Shown one piece after another: positions 17,302 through 47,985 of a DNA stretch of 64,000 nucleotides; the first letter of the stretch is position 1, and each line of letters opens with the position of its first letter. Source of the DNA: Anaerofustis stercorihominis DSM 17244 (lineage in GTDB: Bacteria > Bacillota > Clostridia > Eubacteriales > Anaerofustaceae); assembly GCF_000154825.1 (NCBI RefSeq), contig NZ_DS560015.1:397052-461051 (forward strand), in the 5' to 3' direction. A program made the translations under genes and the position numbers. The notes beneath the pieces are model-generated. The model saw only the letters and a list, made by a program, of their open reading frames with translations. It was not told the origin of the DNA and searched no databases.

Positions 17302-17377
17302 TGGCAGGGGCAGAAGGACTTGAACCCTCGGCACGTGGTTTTGGAGACCACTGCTCTACCAACTGAGCTATACCCCT
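17302..17377 (-). tRNA. trnW: tRNA-Trp, anticodon CCA
   Basis: Read on the minus strand, the 76 bases fold as a cloverleaf. AGGGGTA pairs with TGCCCCT in the acceptor stem, the D arm reads AGCTCAGTTGGTAGAGC, and the anticodon arm GTGGTCTCCAAAACCAC shows CCA. The T arm contains GGTTCAAGTCC, and a CCA tail is encoded. Confidence 0.97.
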
Positions 17378-18793: not shown

Positions 18794-21700
18794 ATGAAAA
18801 ACTATGGGATTAAAGAAGTCTTTAAAATAAAAGAAAGAGCTTATAGCCAAAATGATATGATAAAAACATTATATGATTCAATGCCGGGGCATTTGTTTGC
18901 CGTAGAAGATCATTATCCATATCGTGTTTTATTTATAAGTAAAGAAGCTCTTTCTTTTTTTTGTATAGAAAATGATAAAAATATAACTGATATGACTTTA
19001 AAAGATTTGGTAAGCCCGGAAGAAAACGACTATATATTAAATGATATAAAGAAAATAAAAAATGGTAAGAAGATAATAAATTGGAATAGGACTTTTACTA
19101 ATATCGGAAATAATATCGTTCACTTTCTCGGAAGGACTTCCTTGATAGAAAATCCTGACGGTTCAACTTTCATTCAAGTATATTATTATAATATGAATAC
19201 CATTAACCATTTGGAAAAGTCTATAGACCAAATAGAATATCACATAAAAAATATTGCCGATAGTATCAGTGACGGACTTTGTTTTTATGAAGTAAAAAGC
19301 GGAGAGTTATTTCCTTTATATGTAAATGACGGATATTTAAATATAATCGGCTATGACAGAAACAATTATGATACGAACTCATCCATAAAAGATAAGGTTC
19401 ATCCCGATGATTTGAACGCTCTTTCATTAGCAATCAAAGAATGCTTGATGTCAGGGAAACTTATGGAGTTTAAACTCAGGGTAATAGATATCAAAGGCAA
19501 GTATCATTGGATAAATGCGAAAGCACACAGGATAGATGATTATCCCGGTACCAATAACCCTGTGATCTTTGCTCTTGTGACCGATGTAACGGAACAAAGA
19601 AGAGCAGAGAAAGCTTTAATAAAATCTGAAGAAGCAAAAAGAAAAACATTTGAAGAGTTAAGAAAGAAAAATCAACAGATAGAATTGATACTCTCTTCAA
19701 TCAACGGAGGTCTTGCTTCTTATGAGTGTGATACATATGATTTTCTTTATGTAAGCGATGAATTATGCAAAATGCTGGGATATTCAAAAGAGGAATTTCT
19801 AAGTGTAACAAAGGGCAATGTGCTGAATTTGATTTATTATATCGATAAAGTAAAAGCCGTTAAAGATTATCATAAATCTTTTTTGGAGAATGAAAAAAAT
19901 TATGCGGTCAAATACAGGGTCGTTTGTAAAGACGGTTCGCTAAAATGGATATTAGACAGCGGCTATAAATCCAAATCCGATGAGGGAAAAGATATAATCA
20001 ACTGCTTGTTTTTGGATATAGACGAACTTCAGCAGTCTACTTTAAAAGTAACGGAACAGAAAGATTTTCTTGACAGTATATATAACTCAGTCATGTGCGG
20101 TATACTTCGTTATCATAATGTAGGCGGTGAATTTGCTTTTATCATGATGAATAATGAAGCGCTTAAAATTTTCGGATATGAGACGGAAGAAGAATGTTTG
20201 AAACTCGGAAGGGAAGAGTTTTTAAACAGGGTTTATTATGAAGACAGAGATTACATATTAAGCAAAATAAACTCTTTAAGAGACGTCGGAGAGAATTTCA
20301 GCGAAGAATATAGGATAAAAAGACCAAACGGCGAAATACGCTGGGTCTATGCCACAAGCGAAATGGTAAAAGACGCCAAGGGCAATATCCTTAATCAAAG
20401 GGTAATGATGGACATAACCGACAGAAAAAAACTTGAAATAGAAGAAAGACTCAGCGGTATAATACGTACCGCTTACGATGTTGTGGTTGATATAGATTTA
20501 AAGACCGGGGAATATATTGAGAATGATTTTTCTGAAATGAGTTATTTTAAAAAGAATTACGGAAATTATAAAAGGTCATTCTTACAAATGTTGAGGCATG
20601 ATATAGATCACAGAGATACAAAATATATAGCGAATACGTTAGGGATAAAAAATTTAAGACATATAGCAGAAAATAAACAGGACGTGAGAAAATTATCATG
20701 TAAATACAGGCTCAGAGAAGATGAAAACAAGTGGATAGAAGCTACTGCCATATTTAACTCCGGTCAAAACAGAAACAGGATAAATCTGATCATCAGAGAT
20801 ATAACCGACCAGATAAAACAGGAAGAATTGATTGAAGCTCAAAACAGAGCACTTGAAAAAGCACTTAAAAAAGCAAATGCCGCAAACGAAGCAAAATCGT
20901 TGTTCTTATCGAGTATGTCGCACGATATAAGAACGCCTATGAACGGTATAGTGGGGATGACTACAGTTGCAAAAGAAAGTATCAAAAACGAAGACAGGAT
21001 AAAGGACTGTCTCGATAAAATAGATGTTTCTTCAAAGCATTTATTAAGTCTTATAAACGATATATTGGATATGTCAAGGATAGAAAGCGGGAATTTGATT
21101 TTAAAAGAAGAAAACGTCAATATTTCGGATTTGTTCCATGACACTTTAACGATCATCTTGTCTCAGGCTAAGGAAAAGAATCAGAATATAAGATTTGATA
21201 TAGATGTGGAACATGAAAATATAATAGTCGATTCACTGAGACTTCAGCAGGTATTTATAAATATATTGTCAAATGCCATCAAATTCACTGAGTATAATGG
21301 GAATATCGATATAAATATATACGAACTTCCTCAGACAAAACAAGGATATGCAGATTATAAATTTGAATTTATTGATGACGGTATCGGAATATCAAAAGAA
21401 TTCATTGATAATATATTTGAACCTTTTGAAAGAGAAAATAAAGAAATGTCGGGGAAAATCCAAGGTACGGGGCTGGGAATGACTATAACAAAACGTATAC
21501 TCGATATGATGGGAGGAAAAATCTTAGTTAGAAGTGAACTGGGAAAAGGAACTTGTTTTACGGTGTGTGCTTCTTATAAATTAAATCATATAAAAGAACC
21601 TAAAATCAATGATTCGGTTAAAGACCTTCGAGTACTTATAGCCGACAGCAGTCAAAAAAACGCTAAAAGGCTCAATTTGATACTAAATTCACTTGGTATC

Positions 21701-25105: not shown

Positions 25106-26551
25106 TTGAAATTAAAAGATATTTTAGAGGGATATCCTCATTCTTTAAACGGAAATAAAGATATAGAAAATATAGATATAAATAGTATTGTTTTTGATTC
25201 CAGAAAATGCGAAGAAGGTTCTATGTTCGTTTGTATCGTAGGTTATGAAACAGACGGACATAAATATATAGACAGCGCACTTAAACTTGGGGTAAAGGTG
25301 ATTTGTCACAGTGAAGAATTAGAAGGATACAAAGACGATATTACATATATAAAATGCGAAAACACGAGAAATGCTCTTGCATATTTCGCTAACAGATTTT
25401 ACTCATTCCCTAGCAAAAATCTCAAATTGATCGGAGTAAGCGGTACCAACGGTAAGACTTCTTTTTGTGATATAGCACATACGCTTTTTGAAAACCTTGG
25501 TTTTAAAACCGACTACATCGGTACTTTGGGAAGAAAGAACACAAAACTGGAAGGACAGATAATAAGAACAACTCCTGAAATAACCGAACTTACAAAAGAT
25601 TTCAGCGATATGGTAAAGAATGACGTGGATTATTGCTTCCTCGAAGTTTCTTCACACGGTCTCGTACTTGACAGAGTAAGTTTTCTTAACTTTTACATAG
25701 GTGTTTTTTCCAATCTTTCAATGGACCATTTGGATTTTCATAAGACGATGGAAGAATACTATCAGGCAAAGAAGAAACTTTATTACATGGTAGATAGATT
25801 TTCTGTGATAAATATCGATGATGATTACGGACACAGACTCTATAATGAACTTAAGGAAGATAAAAAAGATGTCATCTCATTCGGAGAAAAGGAACAAAGT
25901 GATTATAAAATCACCATAAAAGAACTCTCCTTGAGTAAATCTTCTTTTACTCTTACAAAAGGAAACAATAAATATGATTTCGTCATTAATTCCATAGGAA
26001 AATTCAATATATATAATGTAACCCCGGCTATAATAATAGCCCTTGAAGAGGGAATAGGATATGAAAAAATAAAAGAAGCTATACTCAGGTATCACGGAAC
26101 CAACGGAAGGATAGAGAGGGTGGCAGAAGATATTTTTATTGATTATGCTCATACTCCCGACGCTATGGAAAAGATACTGAAGCTTATAAGAGAAGTCAGC
26201 AGTAAAAAGATAACTCTTGTTTTTGGCTGTGGGGGAAACAGAGACCATGGCAAAAGACCTATTATGGGAAGTGTTTCCGAAAAGTATGCCGACAATATCA
26301 TCCTTACAATGGATAACCCGAGAAAAGAAAAAAACGAAGATATCATAAAGGATATTTTAAACGGGATAAAAAACAAAGATAAAACCGAGATAATATATGA
26401 CAGAAAAGAAGCTATAAATAAGGCTGTAAGAAATAAAAAAGATGATGAAATAGTCTTGGTCTTGGGTAAAGGACATGAGACATATCAGGAACTCGGAGAT
26501 AAAAAGATTTATTTTTCCGATAGAGAAGAAATTTTAAATTCATTAAAATAA
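25106..26551 (+). CDS. murE: UDP-N-acetylmuramoyl-tripeptide synthetase MurE
   Basis: This 481-residue Mur ligase adds the third amino acid of the peptidoglycan stem peptide. The ATP loop GVSGTNGKTS (about residue 109), the HLDFHKTMEEY region with the carbamylated lysine nearby, and GKGHETYQ near the end are intact. The DNPR motif (about residue 402) is the signature of enzymes that use meso-diaminopimelate. The start is a TTG with AAGGAG seven bases upstream. The following small genes are close and may be cotranscribed. Confidence 0.94.
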   Translation: MKLKDILEGYPHSLNGNKDIENIDINSIVFDSRKCEEGSMFVCIVGYETDGHKYIDSALKLGVKVICHSEELEGYKDDITYIKCENTRNALAYFANRFYSFPSKNLKLIGVSGTNGKTSFCDIAHTLFENLGFKTDYIGTLGRKNTKLEGQIIRTTPEITELTKDFSDMVKNDVDYCFLEVSSHGLVLDRVSFLNFYIGVFSNLSMDHLDFHKTMEEYYQAKKKLYYMVDRFSVINIDDDYGHRLYNELKEDKKDVISFGEKEQSDYKITIKELSLSKSSFTLTKGNNKYDFVINSIGKFNIYNVTPAIIIALEEGIGYEKIKEAILRYHGTNGRIERVAEDIFIDYAHTPDAMEKILKLIREVSSKKITLVFGCGGNRDHGKRPIMGSVSEKYADNIILTMDNPRKEKNEDIIKDILNGIKNKDKTEIIYDRKEAINKAVRNKKDDEIVLVLGKGHETYQELGDKKIYFSDREEILNSLK

Positions 26552-36008: not shown

Positions 36009-36638
36009 ATGAAACAATTACAAATTGCTTTTGATACCAAAAGCCTGGATGAATGTATTAAAATCGGTAAGGAATGTGAAGAATATCTGGATATAATCGA
36101 ACTCGGTACACCTCTTGTATATAAATACGGAGCCGAAGGTATTACAAAGTTTAAAGAAGCTTTTCCCGATAAAAAAATATTAGCCGATTTTAAAATAATG
36201 GACGCCGGTGAATTTGAAACAAAAATCGCTTTAGATGCAGGTGCGGATATAGTAACAGTACTTGCCGCAGCGGATAATCAAACTATAGAAGACTCTTTAA
36301 AAGCTGTTAAAGAAGCAGGTAAAGAGCTGCTTGTAGATTTGATTTGCGTTCATGATTTCGAAGAAAGAGTATCTTACCTTGAAAAAATCGGTGTAGACTA
36401 CATATGCGTACATACCGGATCAGACACTCAAAAATTGGGAGCAAATCCTCTTAAAGACTTAATAACCGTTAAGAAACTCGTTAAAAATACTAAAGTGAGT
36501 GTTGCAGGGGGAGTTAAGGTGGATACCGTAAAAAGTATCAGCGATGAAAATCCCGATGTGATAATTGTGGGCGGAGGACTTTATAATGCAGAAAATCCCG
36601 CTGAAACTGCTAAAAAGATGGTTGACATCATTAAATAG
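36009..36638 (+). CDS. hxlA: 3-hexulose-6-phosphate synthase
   Basis: The 209-residue TIM-barrel of the orotidine decarboxylase superfamily has QIAFDTKS, the metal/catalytic DFKIMDAGEFE (about residue 60), VHTGSD and VAGGVKVDT. It joins formaldehyde to ribulose-5-phosphate or runs in reverse to make ribulose-5-phosphate. The usual partner, 6-phospho-3-hexuloisomerase (hxlB), is not next to it. KGPDC enzymes are the nearest alternative. AAGGAG precedes the ATG. The promoter of the next gene begins inside its last codons. Confidence 0.85.
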   Translation: MKQLQIAFDTKSLDECIKIGKECEEYLDIIELGTPLVYKYGAEGITKFKEAFPDKKILADFKIMDAGEFETKIALDAGADIVTVLAAADNQTIEDSLKAVKEAGKELLVDLICVHDFEERVSYLEKIGVDYICVHTGSDTQKLGANPLKDLITVKKLVKNTKVSVAGGVKVDTVKSISDENPDVIIVGGGLYNAENPAETAKKMVDIIK

Positions 36639-36650
36639 ATAGTGTATACT
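36622..36650 (+). promoter_or_regulatory. Strong promoter of the degenerate recombinase gene
   Basis: TTGACA, 17 bases, TATACT. The -35 is inside the last codons of hxlA. The palindrome at 36650-36683 begins at the last base of the -10 box, so it covers the expected start of transcription. Confidence 0.7.
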
Positions 36651-36683
36651 TTACTTCAGTAAATAAATATTTAGTGAAGTAAA
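36650..36683. repeat. 34-bp near-palindrome, copy 1 (dif-like or operator)
   Basis: TTTACTTCAGTAAATA, two bases AA, TATTTAGTGAAGTAAA: arms of 16 with one mismatch. The inner 28 bases (36653-36680) can be read as 11 + 6 + 11, the layout of Xer recombination sites. A near-identical palindrome lies at 41484-41515, sharing the 17-base run TAAATAAATATTTAGTG. Its place on the start of transcription of the recombinase gene also fits an operator. Confidence 0.75.
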
Positions 36684-36695
36684 TAGGGTAGTGGA

Positions 36696-37586
36696 ATGAA
36701 TAGTTTTGTAATAGAAGAGTATTTAAGTGATTTAAATATAAATGAGAATTCTAAAAAGGGGTATTTGTACGATTTAAATACCTTCTTTTTGTTTATCAAA
36801 GAAAGGAACTCTTTTGATGAATCATCTCATAATTTAGAAAGTGAATTAAATTTATTTAAAGGTCTTAATAATATCGATATGTATGCTTACATAAATTATT
36901 TGAAATCATCATTAAGTAATTCGGATAAGACGATCGCAAGAAAATTATCCGCGGTTAAAAATCTTTATAAGTATTTAAATAAAAAATATTCTTTTAATAA
37001 TGAGATTATAACTTTTAAATTTAAATACGATAATACATCCTTCAATAATGAAGTCCTGAGTGATAAACAAATAAAAGAGTTGATAGAATATACCAAAAAT
37101 AATGAACCGTTAAAAAATCAAATCATAATATTTTTGATCCTTTTTAACGGACTTACGGTTAAAGAACTAAAAAATATAAAAATCAAAGATATTTACGAAA
37201 ATTCCATAGTTATCGACAGTAATGGTGAAAATGAAAGGATAATAAAAATAAATGACGCTCTGAGAGCCATTTTAAGCGACTTTTTAAATCCAGTCGACCA
37301 GTTGTACCTGTTAAAAGGACGTAATAATCAGCCCATTACCGAAAGACGAATACAAGAAGTTGTAAAGAACGCACTTTCTAAAATAGGTATAAATAAAAAA
37401 GGTATTTCAACAGGAATACTGAGGAATACGTCCGTAAAGATGATAAAGGAGTATAACTCTGCAGGATTTACGGATATAAAAAATTTTCTCGGTATCAAGA
37501 CTGATAAACAAGTGGAGAAGTATTTGAAAGACTCTAATGAACTGAATGAACTCGATATGAATAAAAATCCCTTCAGTAAATTTTAA
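36696..37586 (+). CDS. Tyrosine recombinase-like protein with degraded active site
   Basis: The 296-residue protein has a SAM-like N-terminal core-binding domain (about 5-95) and a C-terminal catalytic fold (about 120-285). The first arginine region reads FNGLTVKELKNI where active enzymes have TGxRxSE. The HxLR box reads TGILRNT (His lost, second Arg kept) and LGH reads LGI. The final tyrosine region KYLK is present. So at least the first arginine and both histidines appear lost, and it is probably not a standard recombinase; it may bind DNA only. GGGTAGTGG precedes the ATG. It is followed by non-coding AT-rich DNA. Confidence 0.75.
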   Translation: MNSFVIEEYLSDLNINENSKKGYLYDLNTFFLFIKERNSFDESSHNLESELNLFKGLNNIDMYAYINYLKSSLSNSDKTIARKLSAVKNLYKYLNKKYSFNNEIITFKFKYDNTSFNNEVLSDKQIKELIEYTKNNEPLKNQIIIFLILFNGLTVKELKNIKIKDIYENSIVIDSNGENERIIKINDALRAILSDFLNPVDQLYLLKGRNNQPITERRIQEVVKNALSKIGINKKGISTGILRNTSVKMIKEYNSAGFTDIKNFLGIKTDKQVEKYLKDSNELNELDMNKNPFSKF

Positions 37587-38207
37587 AATGATTTTTATAT
37601 GAAAGAACTATATGATTTAATAAATTGGTAAAGATTTAATAAAAGAATTAAATACAATCAAGATAAAAGAGCTGAAGATAAATTATAAAGAGAAAGTTTA
37701 ATTAAAATTATTTTAATTAATATTTAATTGGAAGTGTTTGATCAAAGGCTGATAAACAAAGGATTTGAGAAGATTATTATAATATCTTTAATTTAGGTAT
37801 AAAATATGTTTAAGTTTATGCTAAAGTTGTCTTTAGCGGAAAGTTGGTTTATTATTAATATGGTATCGTATCTTATTCCCCTTATATTCAATAAACTTAA
37901 AAATAGTAAAAATACAAGTTTCCCCTTATTATTGAGATGATTTAAAATGAATTATAATGGTATATTTTTTTATTCATTATTATATATATTTCAAAAATAT
38001 CAGCTCAAACAATAGAAATAAAAATCAAATACATTTTAATAATAGTATTGCTAAGAAATCATAATCATTAAGATTATTTTATTAAAAAATAAGTAAAAAA
38101 ACTAATTAAAATTCTATATCCCCTGCCTTATAACAAATTAAATTGATTTAATATTAAAAATATTGTATGATTATATTATTAAATTAATATTTAAAGGGGG
38201 AAAAATA
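37587..38207. other. Very AT-rich gene-poor stretch, about 620 bases
   Basis: All frames are broken by many stops. The one notable ORF is 37806-37940, a 44-codon hydrophobic reading frame (MFKFMLKLSLAESWF...) with only a weak AGGT upstream; it may be a relic or a chance ORF. TATAAT-like boxes are common simply because of base composition. It may be a decayed gene between the degenerate recombinase and the broken surface protein. Confidence 0.5.
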
Positions 38208-39269
38208 ATGATATCAAAAAAGAAAGTACACATGCTTTTATTTACTGTAATGGCTTTATTTATATTAATCTCCGTTCCATCAATTTCCAAAGCGGCAGAT
38301 GATGAGCATTTTATATTTTTAACATCTGAGGATCTTTCTGTAACCTACAGAACTGATAAAACAAAAGGAGTAAAGGGAGAAGAAGTAATTCTTACGGTAA
38401 CTCCTTATCCCGGATATAAAATAAAGGATTTAGATACTAGACTTACTATAGTAGATAGTGAAAACAATTCTATACCTTTCACTAAAACAAGCGGTCCTGA
38501 CAGTAACCTTGAAGAAAAATTTAAATTTATTATAGGTGATCATAATATAACAGTAACAGTTCCACATTCTGATCCTTGTTATGATTTAACTGTAGATCCC
38601 AATATTAAATTCGGGAAAGTGACATTAACGGAGTCAAAGCTATGTCTTTAGGAAATAGGACACATAAAAGTAATAAATGATCCGGAATATCATTTATCAG
38701 ATATATATATTGAGTATACTAACGGAAATAAAGAATTTCCTGTTCTTAATAGGATGACAGGAACTTATGATTTTACTCAAAATAATCCAAAGCCGGGTAT
38801 TGTGCATGCTAAATTTGAAAAAGATACTTATGAAATATATATTTCCCCCGATATAAAAGGAGGCACTATTACAGCGAATAGAAAATCCGCCGGAGTAGAT
38901 GATATAGTAACTTTGACGGTAAAAGAAGATAAAGGATATAAACTTAAAAATATAAATATAAAAGGTGATGTCGTTGATCCGATAAAATTAACAAAAATCT
39001 CTGATTTGAAATATCAGTTTAAAATGCCAAGAAGCGGTATTTTTGTATCTGCTGATTTTAAAAAAGTATCTGATAATACTCCTATTGTGAAAAAAGGCGG
39101 AAACACCAAAAGCAGCGGAACGAAAATAACGGCAGCTAAAAAAACTACGGGTTCGGGGATTGTAAAGACAGGAGACGAAAACGGGGATATATTAAGTTTT
39201 TATGTGATTTTATCTTTACTTTCCATAACAGGTATTGCCTTTATATATAGATATAAAAGACAGCATTAA
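38208..39269 (+). pseudogene. Surface protein with repeat domains and sorting-like C-terminus, interrupted by an amber codon
   Basis: The ATG at 38208 follows AAAGGGGGA; the frame is open from 38163 but the better start is here. An N-terminal signal peptide (MISKKKVHMLL...SKA) is followed by at least two beta-repeat modules of the InlB-like/bacterial repeat type (GYKIKDLD..., GYKLKNINIKG). The C-terminus has VKTGDENG, a hydrophobic helix and RYKRQH, resembling a sortase-type anchor though without a proline. TAG at 38649-38651 stops translation at codon 148. The same frame stays open and homologous-looking on both sides (38652-39269), so this is a single nonsense change. TAG is an ordinary stop elsewhere (trxB, hxlA). 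Confidence 0.75.
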
Positions 39270-39276
39270 ACAATAT

Positions 39277-39311
39277 AAAAAAGACACAGATATTAAACTG
39301 TGTCTTTTTTA
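39277..39311. terminator. Bidirectional terminator between the surface protein gene and tex
   Basis: AAAAAAGACACAG pairs perfectly with CTGTGTCTTTTTT around an eight-base loop. Confidence 0.85.
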
Positions 39312-41456
39312 TTACCTTATCATAGAAAGTGAAATCCTGTTTTTATCCTTATTTACATCCAGCACCGTCACTTCAACTATATCCCCTGTCTTTAATATAT
39401 CGCTTGGATGTTTTATAAATGTATTTGAAATTTGAGATATATGAACAAGCCCGTCCTGATGTACTCCTATATCCACAAAAGCACCAAAGTCTACGACATT
39501 CCTAACGGTTCCTTTTAACTTCATACCCACAATCAAGTCTTCCATTTCCAAAACATCGCTTCTTAGTATCGGAGCGGGTATATCTTCTCTTGGGTCTCTG
39601 CCCGGTTTTATAAGCTCCTTTAAAATATCTTTTAGCGTAGGGATACCTATTTCACATTTTTCAGCTATCTCGCTTAAACCTATTTTTTTAGCTTCTTCTT
39701 CCAAATCAGATATGTTTTCTGTATTTACGTCTTTTAAAGTATGTCCAGTGAGTTCCAATACGTTTTTAGCCGCTTTATATGTTTCGGGATGTACTCCGGA
39801 ATTATCCAAAGGATTTAAACTCTCTGCAACTCTTAAAAAGCCCGCACACTGTTCATAAGATTTTTTACCCAGTTTAGGAACTTTTAAAAGCTCTGAACGT
39901 TTATTGTAAATCCCATTTTCTTCTCTGTAAGCAACTATATTTTTAGCTACGGCACTGCTTATCCCCGCAACATATTCAAGAAGAGAAACAGAAGCTGTGT
40001 TTAAATCAACACCTACGCTGTTTACAACGCTTTCTACCACGCCTGTCAATGCTTCATTAAGTCTTGCCTTCGGCATATCGTGCTGATACTGTCCCACGCC
40101 TATGCTTTTAGGGTCTATTTTAACAAGTTCTGCAAGGGGATCCTGAAGCCTTCTTGCAATAGAAACTGCACTCCTTAGTGCTACATCGAAATCAGGGAAT
40201 TCCTTTGCGGCAAGTTTGGAAGCTGAGTATACCGAAGCCCCTGCTTCGTTTACTATCATGTATTGAACGTCAGTTCCCTTTATCGTATCCGCCACAAATT
40301 TTTCAGATTCTCTTGAAGCCGTCCCGTTCCCTATAGATATTATCTCTACGTTATACTTAGCTATCAAAGCGTTTATTATCTTTTTCGCTTCTTCTGTTTT
40401 ATTGTGAGGAGGTGTGGGGTATATAACGGTAGTATCCAGTACCTTTCCCGTCCAGTCCACGACTGCAATCTTACAACCCGTTCTGTAAGCAGGGTCTAAA
40501 CCCAAAGTTACTTTATTTTTTACAGGAGGTTGCATCAAAAGCTGTCTTAAGTTAGTCGAAAAAGTCTTTATAGCCGATTCGTTGGCAGTATCCGTCAAAT
40601 CATTCCTGATTTCCCTTTCTATGGAAGGAAATAATAATCTGTCAAAGGCATCGATACATGTATCTGTCATATATTTATATGCACTGTTTTTGTTATTCTT
40701 AATGACGTGCTTATGGATGATATAAAGAGCCTGCTCTTTATCTACGCTTATACCTACTTTTAAGAAGCCTTCCTTTTCACCTCGGTTAAGCGCCAGCACT
40801 TTATGTCCCGCAAGTTTTTTGATACCTTCGCTGAAATCATAATAAGTAGCATATACACTGTCTTCATCTTTAGTGTTTTTACTTGCTATCTTACCTCTTT
40901 GACGTATGAACTGTTTTAATTCTTTTCTTATACCCGCATCATCTGAAATGCTTTCCGCGATTATATCAAGAGCACCTTTTATTGCTTCTTCTTCGTTATT
41001 TACGCCATTTTCTTCATTGATATAATCTTTTGCAAGTTCGGTGATATCACCTAAATCCGTATTTTGAGAAATAATCAAATCAGATAAAGGTTCAAGCCCT
41101 TTTTCCTTTGCAATAGAAGCTCTGGTCTTTCTCTTAGGTTTATATGGTCTGTATAAGTCTTCTACTTCAGAAAGAGTTTTTGCATCGTTTATGGATTTCT
41201 CAAGTTCTCCTGTCAGCTTTTCCAAAGAAGCAATGGATTTCTTTACTTCCTCTTTTCTTTCATTTAAGTTGATCAAATAATTGAGTCTGTCCGTTATCTC
41301 CCTTAAAAGCTGATCGTCCATGGAACCTGTGAGTTCTTTACGATACCTTGCTATAAAAGGAACCGTATCCCCCTTGTTTAAGAGTTCAATAACATTTTCA
41401 ATATGTTTTTTGTTTTGATTGAATTCACTTGCTAAAGTTTCGATTATCTGCTGCAT
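39312..41456 (-). CDS. tex: Tex family RNA-binding transcription accessory protein
   Basis: The 714-residue protein has the N-terminal Tex helical domain (GDTVPFIARYRKE near residue 30; DLYRPYKPKRKTRA near 105) and a YqgF-like RNase H fold beginning LGLDPAYRTGCKIAVVD (about 322). Helix-hairpin-helix motifs (about 490-560) and a C-terminal S1 domain (about 635-710) follow. Tex is a widespread, conserved nucleic-acid-binding factor with a role in transcription. AAAGAGG stands before the ATG on the minus strand. The second palindrome lies 28-59 bases upstream of its start. Confidence 0.95.
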   Translation of the reverse strand: MQQIIETLASEFNQNKKHIENVIELLNKGDTVPFIARYRKELTGSMDDQLLREITDRLNYLINLNERKEEVKKSIASLEKLTGELEKSINDAKTLSEVEDLYRPYKPKRKTRASIAKEKGLEPLSDLIISQNTDLGDITELAKDYINEENGVNNEEEAIKGALDIIAESISDDAGIRKELKQFIRQRGKIASKNTKDEDSVYATYYDFSEGIKKLAGHKVLALNRGEKEGFLKVGISVDKEQALYIIHKHVIKNNKNSAYKYMTDTCIDAFDRLLFPSIEREIRNDLTDTANESAIKTFSTNLRQLLMQPPVKNKVTLGLDPAYRTGCKIAVVDWTGKVLDTTVIYPTPPHNKTEEAKKIINALIAKYNVEIISIGNGTASRESEKFVADTIKGTDVQYMIVNEAGASVYSASKLAAKEFPDFDVALRSAVSIARRLQDPLAELVKIDPKSIGVGQYQHDMPKARLNEALTGVVESVVNSVGVDLNTASVSLLEYVAGISSAVAKNIVAYREENGIYNKRSELLKVPKLGKKSYEQCAGFLRVAESLNPLDNSGVHPETYKAAKNVLELTGHTLKDVNTENISDLEEEAKKIGLSEIAEKCEIGIPTLKDILKELIKPGRDPREDIPAPILRSDVLEMEDLIVGMKLKGTVRNVVDFGAFVDIGVHQDGLVHISQISNTFIKHPSDILKTGDIVEVTVLDVNKDKNRISLSMIR

Positions 41457-41483
41457 TTCATACCTCTTTATTTAATAATACTG

Positions 41484-41515
41484 TTACTACACTAAATAAA
41501 TATTTAGTGTAGTAA
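41484..41515. repeat. 32-bp perfect palindrome, copy 2 (dif-like or operator)
   Basis: Arms TTACTACACTAAATA and TATTTAGTGTAGTAA (15 bases each, no mismatch) flank AA. It matches copy 1 at 36650-36683 in the centre and in spacing. It lies upstream of tex, in a 240-base intergenic region between tex and azlD that has no other gene. Confidence 0.75.
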
Positions 41516-41698: not shown

Positions 41699-42040
41699 TT
41701 ACACAAAAACTGCCTGAACCAATATCATATACACTATGGTAGAACCGAATATACTTATAAAGTTGTTCCGCTTCCAAATATGAAGTCCCACTGCCAAAAG
41801 TACTCCTATTATTTCGGGTATCCCGTAAGGATAGGCTATCAAAGACATATCCTTTAAGCAGTAAACCAAAAGCATTATCATCATAGCAGGAGGAAGGACT
41901 TTCCCCAAATATAATATGGTATCGCTCGGTTTCTTCCCTTTCCCCGAGAAAAGGACAAAAGGGACCGATCTTGTGATAAATGTAATTATACATATGATAC
42001 CGATTGCCAAAAGACCTTGAATCAAAGTATATTTATTCAT
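41699..42040 (-). CDS. azlD: Branched-chain amino acid exporter small subunit
   Basis: This 113-residue membrane protein has four hydrophobic helices and the AzlD pattern ITRSVPFVLF plus PAMMIMLLVYCL. AzlD works with AzlC in export of branched-chain amino acids and analogues. The start overlaps the end of azlC by eight bases, the usual arrangement, which implies coupled translation. Confidence 0.9.
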   Translation of the reverse strand: MNKYTLIQGLLAIGIICIITFITRSVPFVLFSGKGKKPSDTILYLGKVLPPAMMIMLLVYCLKDMSLIAYPYGIPEIIGVLLAVGLHIWKRNNFISIFGSTIVYMILVQAVFV

Positions 42041-42737
42041 CCAGTATACCCTCCTTCTCTTCCCTTTTCTTATCCAGCAGAAGAAGTGTTATAATACCTA
42101 TTATTGCGGGTATCATCATGTTGTCCGCACCGAAGATAATCAGAGATATTATACCGCATATTCCTCCGATAAACACTGGAGTCTTGTCTTTTAAATTCAT
42201 CCACTGTTCTACGCACAATACGCAGAATAAGGCTATCATGGCAAATGAAACACCGTTAGTATTGATATTTATTATAGAGCCTATAGTTGCTCCCAGTATC
42301 GAGCCGATTATCCAGTAGCTTTGGTCCAGTATACTTATGTAAAAATAATAATTTTCTTTGTCATGTTTCACACTTTCCGGAACGGTGGAAGAAGTCAAAA
42401 GCGCATATGTTTCGTCAGTCAACGCAAATATCATATATAATTTTTTAAAAAAACTTATCCCTTTAAAAGTTTCTATTAAAGAAAGCCCGTAGACCATATG
42501 TCTGAAATTCACAAAAAAGCTCATTAGAGCAACACTTATAAGGCTCATACCGCCTTGAAACATTACGACTGCAAGATACTGAAGCGTACCCGCATATATG
42601 CTAAGGGACATTCCTCCCGCCCAAATAAAATTAAGACCAATGCTTTGTATCATCAGTCCGAATGCAAAACCAATGGATAGATATCCAAGAAGTACCGGCA
42701 TAGTAACCTTAAATGCCTCTTTAAATGTCTTATTCAT
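42033..42737 (-). CDS. azlC: Branched-chain amino acid exporter large subunit
   Basis: The 234-residue integral membrane protein has about six to seven helices, with the AzlC signature GLMIQSIGLNFIWAGGMSLS and FFVNFRHMVYGLSL. With AzlD it forms the azaleucine/branched-chain amino acid exporter. It is transcribed toward azlD and tex on the minus strand, divergent from the Xer-type gene. Confidence 0.93.
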   Translation of the reverse strand: MNKTFKEAFKVTMPVLLGYLSIGFAFGLMIQSIGLNFIWAGGMSLSIYAGTLQYLAVVMFQGGMSLISVALMSFFVNFRHMVYGLSLIETFKGISFFKKLYMIFALTDETYALLTSSTVPESVKHDKENYYFYISILDQSYWIIGSILGATIGSIININTNGVSFAMIALFCVLCVEQWMNLKDKTPVFIGGICGIISLIIFGADNMMIPAIIGIITLLLLDKKREEKEGILDE

Positions 42738-42850: not shown

Positions 42851-43912
42851 ATGGCCGATTATACAAAAGAAGTCTCAAATAAACTTAATATAAAACTAAG
42901 AGAAGAAATAAAAGAGCTGCCGAGCTTTGCAAATGCTTTCTTCAGGGGTATCACAAACAATACTTCCATAAAGACAAGGATCGCATATGCTATGGATTTA
43001 AAGATATTTTTTGAATATCTAATAGAAAATCATCCCCTATTTACTCATTTAAAAGATATAAAAGACATTTCTCTAAGTGATTTGGATAATGTAAAAGCCG
43101 TTGACTTGGAAGACTTTACCGAATACCTTTCTTATTACACCAAGGAACATTATAAGAACGAAAACAGTAAGGTTCAGCTTTCGAATTCCAACAGAGGGAA
43201 AATGCGAAAGCTTTCGACTCTTCGTTCTTTCTATAAATACTATTTCAAGAAAGAAATGATCAAGACTAACCCGACTGTTTTGGTGGACTTGCCTAAAAAT
43301 TACGAAAAGCCTATTATAAGGTTAGAACCGAACGAAGTGGCAAATCTTTTAGATGAAATAGAAAGCGGGAAAAGCCTGACCCCGGCTCAGCTCAAATATC
43401 ATAATAAGACAAAAGTAAGAGACTTAGCAATCGTAACACTGCTTGTGGGTACGGGTATACGTATAAGCGAATGTGTGGGACTTAATGTGAACGATGTTGA
43501 TTTTAACAATGACAGTTTTGTCGTTACCAGAAAAGGCGGGAACAAAACCATACTTTATATGCCTGAAGAAGTAAGAGAAGCACTTCTCAGATATTTAAGG
43601 GAAACGAGAGAGAATATCGATACGGAGGAAAGTGCTCTGTTTTTATCCCTTCAAAATAAAAGGATGACTCAAAGCAGTATACAAAAGATGTTGAAGAAAT
43701 ATACAAAGATAGTTGTTCCGCTAAAAAACATATCCCCTCATAAATTAAGAAGTACCTACGGAACAAATTTATATAAGGAAACGGGAGATATATATCTGGT
43801 TGCAGATGTTCTCGGTCATAAAGATGTAAATACGACAAAGAAACATTACGCAGCGATAGAAGAAGAGAGAAGAAAAATAGCGGCAAGAGTAACAAAGTTA
43901 AGAGATGATTAA
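42851..43912 (+). CDS. Xer-type tyrosine recombinase (XerS-like length)
   Basis: The 353-residue protein has a core-binding domain (about 30-155) and a full catalytic set: GTGIRISE (Arg I, about residue 202), the lysine in TRKGGNK, SPHKLRSTYG (His and Arg II), LGHKDVNTTKKHY with the nucleophile tyrosine. Its length and insertion are nearer to single-component XerS (about 356) than to XerC/XerD (about 300). This suggests it may be the chromosome dimer resolution enzyme, but that is an inference. It has its own promoter and terminator. Confidence 0.85.
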   Translation: MADYTKEVSNKLNIKLREEIKELPSFANAFFRGITNNTSIKTRIAYAMDLKIFFEYLIENHPLFTHLKDIKDISLSDLDNVKAVDLEDFTEYLSYYTKEHYKNENSKVQLSNSNRGKMRKLSTLRSFYKYYFKKEMIKTNPTVLVDLPKNYEKPIIRLEPNEVANLLDEIESGKSLTPAQLKYHNKTKVRDLAIVTLLVGTGIRISECVGLNVNDVDFNNDSFVVTRKGGNKTILYMPEEVREALLRYLRETRENIDTEESALFLSLQNKRMTQSSIQKMLKKYTKIVVPLKNISPHKLRSTYGTNLYKETGDIYLVADVLGHKDVNTTKKHYAAIEEERRKIAARVTKLRDD

Positions 43913-47088: not shown

Positions 47089-47092
47089 ATTT

Positions 47093-47120
47093 AAAGGATA
47101 CCTTAAAGGTATCCTTTTTT
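47093..47120. terminator. Bidirectional terminator
   Basis: AAAGGATACC-TTAAA-GGTATCCTTT between convergent genes; it reaches the last bases of the hydrolase gene. Confidence 0.85.
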
Positions 47121-47985
47121 ATAATTCTTTCAAAAAATCAATTATCATTTGCTTTTCTTTGTTTGTCAGTATATGCATATGTCCCCTGCCTCTCAGTTCA
47201 TATGTCCTGACGTTTGGGATTATTTCTTTGGCTCTTTTTATCACTCTTTTTGCGGGAAAAAGACAGTCATACTCTCCCGCTAAAACAAATGCGGGGGCTT
47301 TGAATTTATTCATCCTATTTTTATCTGTATTGCTAGGCATTGCCACTTTTGTTTTTACATTGTCAAAACTGTCTTTTAATATATCTTTCGTATCTTCATC
47401 TATTATATCTTCTCCGTTTGTCATATACATAGCTGTCTTTATTATAAAATCTTCATTCTTTGTAATGATATATTTAATTAAAGGTATCATCATTTTTGCA
47501 CTGCTTATGGGAAAGGCATTATTTATTCCCGACGGAACTTCCAATACACATCTTTCCACCTTCTCGGGGCTTATACACATCAATTTAGCAAGTACTCCTC
47601 CGCCGAAAGAACCTCCGTAACACATTATATTTCTAAATCCAATTTTATCTATTACTTCACTTGCCCATTTCCCGTAAGAATATCCCCTCGAAGATAAGCT
47701 TATTTCGTCGCTCTTTCCGGGATGACCTATTATATCTACTGCATAAATATCAAAATCATCAAGCAGGAATTTACATAAAAGCAAATTATAAGCAGTTGTG
47801 GAATTACCTCCGTGAAATACCAATAATGGTTTCCCTGCTTTATTGCCCGTCCTTATTAAATGTGTTCTACCAAATGAAGTATCGACATAAATATCTTCAT
47901 AAGGAGCTCCTATTTTTTTTAGCTGTCTGTCGTACAATTCAAGGCATTTCTTCTTGCCTTCTTTGGTTTTATATATGCTTTTCAT
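47119..47985 (-). CDS. Alpha/beta hydrolase
   Basis: The 288-residue protein has LLVFHGGNSTT (oxyanion region, about residue 54), VDIIGHPGKSD, the nucleophile elbow YGGSFGGGV (S about 121), an aspartate in AGEYDCLFP and the histidine in GRGHMHI (about 268). The fold places it with small esterases and lactonases. The substrate is not evident. AAGGGA lies before the ATG on the minus strand. Confidence 0.8.
   Translation of the reverse strand: MKSIYKTKEGKKKCLELYDRQLKKIGAPYEDIYVDTSFGRTHLIRTGNKAGKPLLVFHGGNSTTAYNLLLCKFLLDDFDIYAVDIIGHPGKSDEISLSSRGYSYGKWASEVIDKIGFRNIMCYGGSFGGGVLAKLMCISPEKVERCVLEVPSGINNAFPISSAKMMIPLIKYIITKNEDFIIKTAMYMTNGEDIIDEDTKDILKDSFDNVKTKVAMPSNTDKNRMNKFKAPAFVLAGEYDCLFPAKRVIKRAKEIIPNVRTYELRGRGHMHILTNKEKQMIIDFLKEL

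Follow-up and report, generated by a model that had tools for sequence, protein, structure and literature searches.

The window analysed here is the whole stretch of 64,000 nucleotides at positions 397,052 to 461,051 of contig NZ_DS560015.1 of Anaerofustis stercorihominis DSM 17244. It holds two near-identical palindromes, one beside a degenerate tyrosine recombinase gene and the other beside the gene tex, together with an intact recombinase gene and a separate dif-like site; seen alongside its relatives, the arrangement looks like one Xer/dif system supplanted by another at the same chromosomal place. We coined the name XerX for the degenerate Xer homologue, and refer to the candidate site of this protein as difX and to the site of the XerS type as difS. 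The central features, in window coordinates, are:

36650-36683: copy 1 palindrome, 16-bp arms with one mismatch and a 2-bp centre
36653..36680, plus strand: site A1 (candidate difX), the 28-bp 11+6+11 core of copy 1, conserved among three species at 26-27 of 28 bases
36696..37586, plus strand: xerX, a tyrosine recombinase homologue with Pfam tyrosine recombinase domains
37814..37843, minus strand: difS, an XerS-type dif-like site, conserved among three species at 27-28 of 30 bases
39312..41456, minus strand: tex
41484-41515: copy 2 palindrome, perfect, 15-bp arms
41486..41513, minus strand: site A2 (second candidate difX), the 28-bp core of copy 2, conserved among three species at 24-26 of 28 bases
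42851..43912, plus strand: xerS-like recombinase gene, catalytic R-K-H-R-H-Y intact

A preliminary description of the locus, drawn from the sequence alone, had reported both palindromes at these places, the perfect 15-bp arms of copy 2 and an 11+6+11 layout, all of which recomputation confirmed. The inner 28 bases of the copies fit this layout with 10/11 and 11/11 arm pairs, the copies are direct repeats with 91% identity over 35 nt, and the sites lie very close to genes, A1 ending 15 bp from the xerX start codon and A2 standing 29 bp from that of tex. A search of the window with an 18-base core, allowing up to 3 mismatches, gave 4 strand matches where 0.73 were expected. All of them fall at the two sites and 1 of 100 shuffles equalled this count, a modest excess within the window alone. 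It is conservation across species that is decisive, unlike this excess, in marking the palindromes as real. The comparison covers three draft assemblies of Anaerofustis: the window's own genome (G000), G002, and G001, which represents a third species of the genus. Each has two sites, one 5' of xerX and the other 5' of tex. The 28-base pattern with up to 3 mismatches recovered both sites in all three, with one extra 3-mismatch match on contig C5 of the window's own genome, and had no match in the other 38 of the 41 genomes searched. Between the species 24-27 of the 28 core bases are identical, and the directly abutting ungapped flanks mostly match at 7-14 of 28 positions, the exception being the right flank of site 1 in the two closest species (28/28), which runs into xerX. 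The consensus of these sites is ACTTCACTAAA-TAAATA-TTTAGTGAAGT; one unpaired change is present in the arms of four of the six, and the centres of the two sites are equal in G000 and G002 and unequal in G001 (TAAATA, TAATTA). Judged by this pattern of conservation, A1 and A2 are under selection.

XerX has a tyrosine recombinase fold without the full catalytic set. XerC/XerA models fit the protein best, and a structure model (predicted local distance difference test 83, predicted template-modelling score 0.60) matches Xer proteins and integrases, with XerA first by E-value among PDB entries, followed by XerH and lambda integrase. At the catalytic positions it reads T-N-G-R-I-Y where R-K-H-R-H-Y is expected, and across the three Anaerofustis species TNGRIY or TNNRLY, so that R1, K, H and H/W are lost and R2 and Tyr retained. 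The recombinase beside copy 1 had already been described as degenerate, and with its domains present and these residues gone it is. A match with 87% identity occurs in Anaerofustis stercorihominis DSM 28733. Between the two closest of the three species, xerX has a ratio of nonsynonymous to synonymous substitutions (dN/dS) of 0.09; the wider pairs, with dS near saturation, give 0.15-0.17. By this measure the gene is under purifying selection in Anaerofustis. A relic gene and relic sites would drift, and because neither does, xerX and its sites are not mere relics. The genome contains four genes with the domain PF00589, including xerX and the xerS-like gene, and the remaining two look like integrases from their length alone.

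The ancestral function of this pair of gene and site is suggested by related genomes. A XerX profile built from 11 sequences and searched in 67 genomes of the order matched 56, of which 35 belong to a single family (f3). In f3 the R-K-H-R-H-Y set is complete in 34 of 35 loci, the remaining one (G055) being truncated where its contig ends. Just upstream of xerX, 26 of the 35 have a similarly built palindrome, examples being TTGTCACGAAA TGTAAG TTTCGTGACAA, ATTGCGTATAA CCTACG TTATACGCAAT and TTGTCGCTAAA CTATTA TTTAGCGACAA. These loci fall into two sets, with palindromes at 22/23 in the first, where the gene of the one miss (G053) is close to a contig start, and at 4/12 in the second; two of the palindromes (G054 and G035) have only 8/11 arm pairs. 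Many f3 genomes are closely related, and their counts are therefore not independent cases. Six complete f3 genomes carry a single exact copy of the palindrome each, at xerX, and in the two sampled among the complete genomes (G014 and G040) the GC skew changes sign at the palindrome. A close relative of XerS was present in one of 14 f3 genomes checked (G035). Since f3 combines a complete XerX, sister palindromes upstream and a skew flip at the same point, we take the palindrome to be difX: A1 is such a 28-bp near-palindrome just 5' of xerX, and A2 is the same sequence at tex. These comparisons of sequence suggest that XerX/difX is a single-recombinase module at the terminus in related genomes, in which XerX is predicted to bind difX. 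We had considered the site as an operator of XerX only, and revised this on account of the complete XerX with its site at the skew flip in f3.

Ten further genomes of the order (G008, G010, G013, G016, G019, G020, G021, G024, G027 and G032) have xerX 5' of xerS in the same orientation, 42-785 bp away, and each carries a palindrome 5' of xerX, which in G027 and G032 fits with a 5-bp centre. Among 37 loci, a palindrome with at least 10/11 arm pairs occurs near the xerX start in 30, against 0.6 expected from 20 dinucleotide-keeping shuffles per locus; 29 of the 30 are the site itself and that of G032 is a different palindrome. Overall, a site recognisable on reading stands 5' of xerX at 40 of 50 loci (35/37 plus 5/13), the ten without one being G012, G053 and eight further f3 loci (G059, G039, G048, G034, G044, G052, G043 and G341). 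A tRNA-Trp gene is found in the window at 17,302-17,377 on the minus strand, 19 kb from A1, and in several relatives the nearest gene upstream of the xerX palindrome encodes a tRNA that by eye looks like tRNA-Trp.

This distribution bears on two readings in which XerX plays no part. The sites could be operators of an unrelated regulator, for example of the ArsR/CadC type, controlling xerX and tex, as had been raised at the outset, and a promoter-like sequence (TTGACA-17-TATACT) does abut copy 1 in the window. The genome holds only two sites, though, not many copies before unrelated promoters, and the site tracks xerX across families, including loci where a complete xerX has its site at a skew flip; we regard such operators as very improbable, and nothing was found in support of the ArsR/CadC type, for which no binding model was run. 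A genome-wide operator regulon was likewise rejected, given the two sites and looser 2-mismatch matches about as numerous as in the control. Nor do transcribed hairpins, acting as terminators or structures of the 5' untranslated region without a protein partner, appear at all probable. Terminator-like scan matches at A2 on both strands and a T run after the site in G010 are in their favour, yet four of six Anaerofustis sites have an unpaired arm change, and in G027 and G032 a -10-like box, identified by eye, reads downstream of the palindrome, which would leave the palindrome untranscribed there.

The second system at the locus is of the XerS type. The preliminary description had noted an intact Xer gene about 1.3 kb from copy 2; this gene indeed starts 1.3 kb away and encodes R-K-H-R-H-Y. 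The top NCBIfam match of its product is XerS at 191 bits, under the cut-off of 267, for which reason we label it XerS-like. Such genes extend beyond the order, being present in 47 of 291 genomes of the class at E <= 1e-60. In relatives an asymmetric site class, ACTTTCCGTTAAAGACAAGTTTAATGTAAAGT and variants, stands 5' of xerS, scoring at least 19 near the gene in 15 of 20 loci outside Anaerofustis; it is absent or not clear in the other five of these loci (G004, which starts inside the gene, G006, G011, G012 and G035). The class also occurs in G017, G003 and G005, where no xerX was found. In all three Anaerofustis species its best match, difS, lies just beyond xerX, at 5.0-11.4 kb from xerS instead of adjacent to it, and is distinct in sequence class from difX. 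We had entertained the idea that the XerS-like enzyme works on A1 and A2 as a duplicated dif, and dropped it when relatives showed the different, asymmetric site 5' of xerS, which was then found at 37,814. In two more distant Clostridia genomes (L141 and L142) the 28-bp core of the XerS-type site, about 100-135 bp 5' of xerS, also forms a perfect palindrome, TATTCGCAAAA-CACAAG-TTTTGCGAATA.

The position of the terminus favours difS. Cumulative skew, computed within the available stretches of the three Anaerofustis genomes, has its maximum at 21,633 in G001, where difS occupies 21,601-21,630, and at 25,393 in G002, where it occupies 25,244-25,273; in both the maximum is within 150 bp of difS, more than 1 kb from A1 and more than 4 kb from A2. 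In G016 the skew turns at about 115 kb, with difS near 115.4 kb. Along the window's contig 15 stretches were sampled: the five on the right all have negative skew, and the ten on the left have positive skew apart from those at positions 1 and 160,001. Because skew maxima fall near the XerS-type site, difS is likely the working dif of Anaerofustis, and an intact active site, a linked dif-like site and the terminus come together in the gene at 42,851 and the site at 37,814. A1 and A2 differ from a working dif on several counts: the maximum is elsewhere in G001 and G002, there are two copies in each of the three draft genomes, XerX is degenerate, and xerS neighbours the other site class in relatives. 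The initial Xer/dif reading of the palindromes hence survives in part. A1 and A2 are probably Xer-type 11+6+11 sites, and they do lie by Xer genes at the skew terminus, with sister sites 5' of complete XerX in relatives, but with difS between them and XerX degenerate they are probably not the working dif here. Neither copy marks the skew maximum itself in G001 and G002.

The order A1 - xerX - difS - cargo - tex - A2 - azlDC - xerS is shared by all three species, and the window has two further features in this segment:

38163..39269, plus strand: interrupted surface-protein gene in two frames, with an InlB B-repeat domain in the second
41699..42737, minus strand: azlD and azlC, an amino-acid transporter pair between A2 and xerS

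The split of the surface gene into two reading frames and the location of tex inside the segment both agree with the preliminary description. The interval between difS and tex (window 37,850-39,300) carries different cargo in each species: the window has the broken surface gene, while by eye G001 has alcohol dehydrogenase and flavodoxin-like genes and G002 has genes resembling type I restriction-modification. It has the appearance of a hotspot for insertions at the terminus. Relative to its flanks, a 10.4-kb segment (about 36.65-47.1 kb) is inverted between G000 and G002, with ends at window 36,637-36,652 and 47,089-47,128, and in G001 a larger segment of about 31-47 kb is inverted.

If A1 and A2 were functional Xer sites, the segment between them (36.65-41.5 kb) could undergo excision, inversion or capture, as the preliminary description had suggested. 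The direct orientation and equal centres of the sites in G000 and G002, and the left inversion end, which abuts A1 with its breakpoint at most 16 bp away, would suit such activity. The other end, however, is at about 47.1 kb and not at A2; the centres are unequal in G001, XerX lacks four of six catalytic residues and a separate site class belongs to XerS. All three species retain the segment in the same order, with neither loss nor inversion of exactly that stretch, and this also differs from a mobile element with dif flanks, such as an integrative mobile element exploiting Xer (IMEX) or a dif module. We give recombination between the sites hardly any credence. An unrelated dif elsewhere with no variation between the palindromes, which the preliminary description had named as evidence against Xer sites, is largely what we see, in the form of difS and of the absence of an exact loss or inversion of this segment in the three species.

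The apparent replacement of one system by the other can be followed across the order. The 50 XerX sequences comprise 37 with the full catalytic set, 12 degenerate ones and one interrupted by a contig end. All 12 degenerate ones belong to families f1, f4 and f5 and occur in genomes with an intact XerS-like gene, and two genomes of family f2 (G013 and G021) have both XerX and XerS-like complete. In a tree of XerX and XerS, which contains many long branches, XerS falls on one side of a branch with support of 100/100, and the active XerX, grouping at 91/97, are probably one group. The apparent stages can be put in order, from XerX alone and complete (most of f3), through both complete (G013, G021), to a degenerate XerX beside XerS (f1, f4, f5) or genomes where XerX was not found (for example G017 and G005). 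In the simplest history XerS/difS would have come beside XerX/difX and taken over, whereupon XerX lost catalysis.

Based on these observations we propose that A1 and A2 are difX, that the XerS-like system took over, and that the non-catalytic XerX was kept as a predicted DNA-binding repressor of xerX and tex; we consider this the best explanation and a probable one. In related genomes difX would be the 28-bp recognition site of XerX, the two together forming a single-recombinase Xer/dif module, which in Anaerofustis would have been replaced by the XerS-like recombinase with its own dif. XerX, devoid of catalytic residues, may then have been retained as a sequence-specific DNA-binding protein. 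A1 would be the ancestral site, at xerX itself, and A2 a second site, at tex; a XerX dimer could sit on each palindrome with one subunit per 11-bp arm, and bound XerX might repress xerX and tex in the way that SPbeta is repressed by MrpR, a dead recombinase.

Several observations weigh against this reading. The proximity of site and xerX is inherited from the module and so is by itself no sign of regulation, and the promoter match next to A1 is not common to the other two Anaerofustis species, so that the earlier placement of copy 1 on a transcription start finds a counterpart in the window and not beyond it. In the window the skew maximum (39,206) is on a flat top between A1 and A2 and does not discriminate A1, difS and A2. 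The eight f3 loci named above, from three genera, have a complete XerX and no recognisable site within 300 bp upstream, and no recognisable site was seen upstream of the degenerate XerX of G012. The dead XerX are not resolved as one group in the tree, G027_X and G032_X falling elsewhere, and because of this we draw no conclusion on the number of XerX losses. Finally, in G032 of f5 (L114, G032:C53) two XerX-type genes lie in divergent orientation beside XerS, one truncated and the other complete. Each has a palindrome of its own, that of the complete gene being perfect, so catalytic loss is not a clean family trait; the complete gene may be a newcomer or an old copy.

A different role for the retained protein is conceivable, if less probable. 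XerX at A1 and A2 might serve the terminus rather than regulate genes, the former dif sites acting as structural elements on which a pseudo-recombinase, without cleavage of its own, steers either the unloading of the structural maintenance of chromosomes (SMC) complex or XerS synapsis at the new dif between them. All three species have difS flanked by A1 and A2 in spite of the surrounding inversions, A2 is kept in G001 although the azlD-tex gap has shrunk to 52 bp, of which its core takes up 28, and bacterial XerD is stated in the available part of a citing paper (PMC12322038) to unload SMC at the terminus. Against this, other genera examined have a single site, and the fixed position of A2 before tex suits a regulator better. 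Our first guess is that XerX represses xerX and tex, with the terminus role a close second; the constant position of A2 at tex tips the balance slightly. Should the terminus role be the correct one, nature would here have uncoupled DNA binding by Xer proteins from their part in recombination. A dead XerX with a site under selection could make non-recombination roles of these proteins testable free of catalysis. The locus is also a caution that a dif-like palindrome beside a Xer gene is not necessarily a working dif.

Among known systems, the XerS-like gene and difS of the window are of the same kind as XerS/difSL of streptococci and lactococci, described in the accessible portions of PMC5357621 and PMC2731167 as a single recombinase with a site beside its gene at the terminus. 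The left arm of difSL as given in a review excerpt, TTTCCGAAAA, resembles that of difS, TTTCCGCTAAA; difSL as reported there has 31 bp with an 11-bp centre, whereas difX belongs to another sequence class, a near-symmetric 28-mer paired with a protein that XerC/XerA models fit best. XerX/difX resembles XerH/difH, XerA/dif and XerL/dif (for XerL, PMC9765430), each of which comprises one recombinase and one near-palindromic terminus site; these three are catalytically active, which Anaerofustis XerX is not expected to be. In its residues XerX is like MrpR, the SPbeta master repressor, which the available text of PMC10516654 presents as a DNA-binding repressor with a tyrosine recombinase fold: both have lost R1, His and H/W and kept Tyr, although MrpR, by the same text, keeps the Lys that XerX lost and XerX keeps R2. 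The phage repressor SroF of phi3T, in its DNA-bound form, is among the fold matches of XerX, at rank 39. MrpR is a phage protein, whereas XerX is chromosomal, lies at the terminus and descended from a dif-using enzyme. Bacillus subtilis XerD, unlike XerX, remains a recombinase. Its unloading of SMC at the terminus, as summarised in the excerpt of PMC12322038, is a job for a Xer protein besides recombination, comparable to the less probable terminus role of XerX. Among the titles and abstract beginnings listed in literature searches of an incomplete library, with 5-15 papers to a list, none described XerX/difX or its replacement by XerS. The nearest published idea found to such a replacement comes from the available part of Kono et al. 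2011 (PMC3025954), a study restricted to XerCD bearers, where a Lactobacillus with XerC, XerD and XerS is regarded as a possible intermediate between systems.

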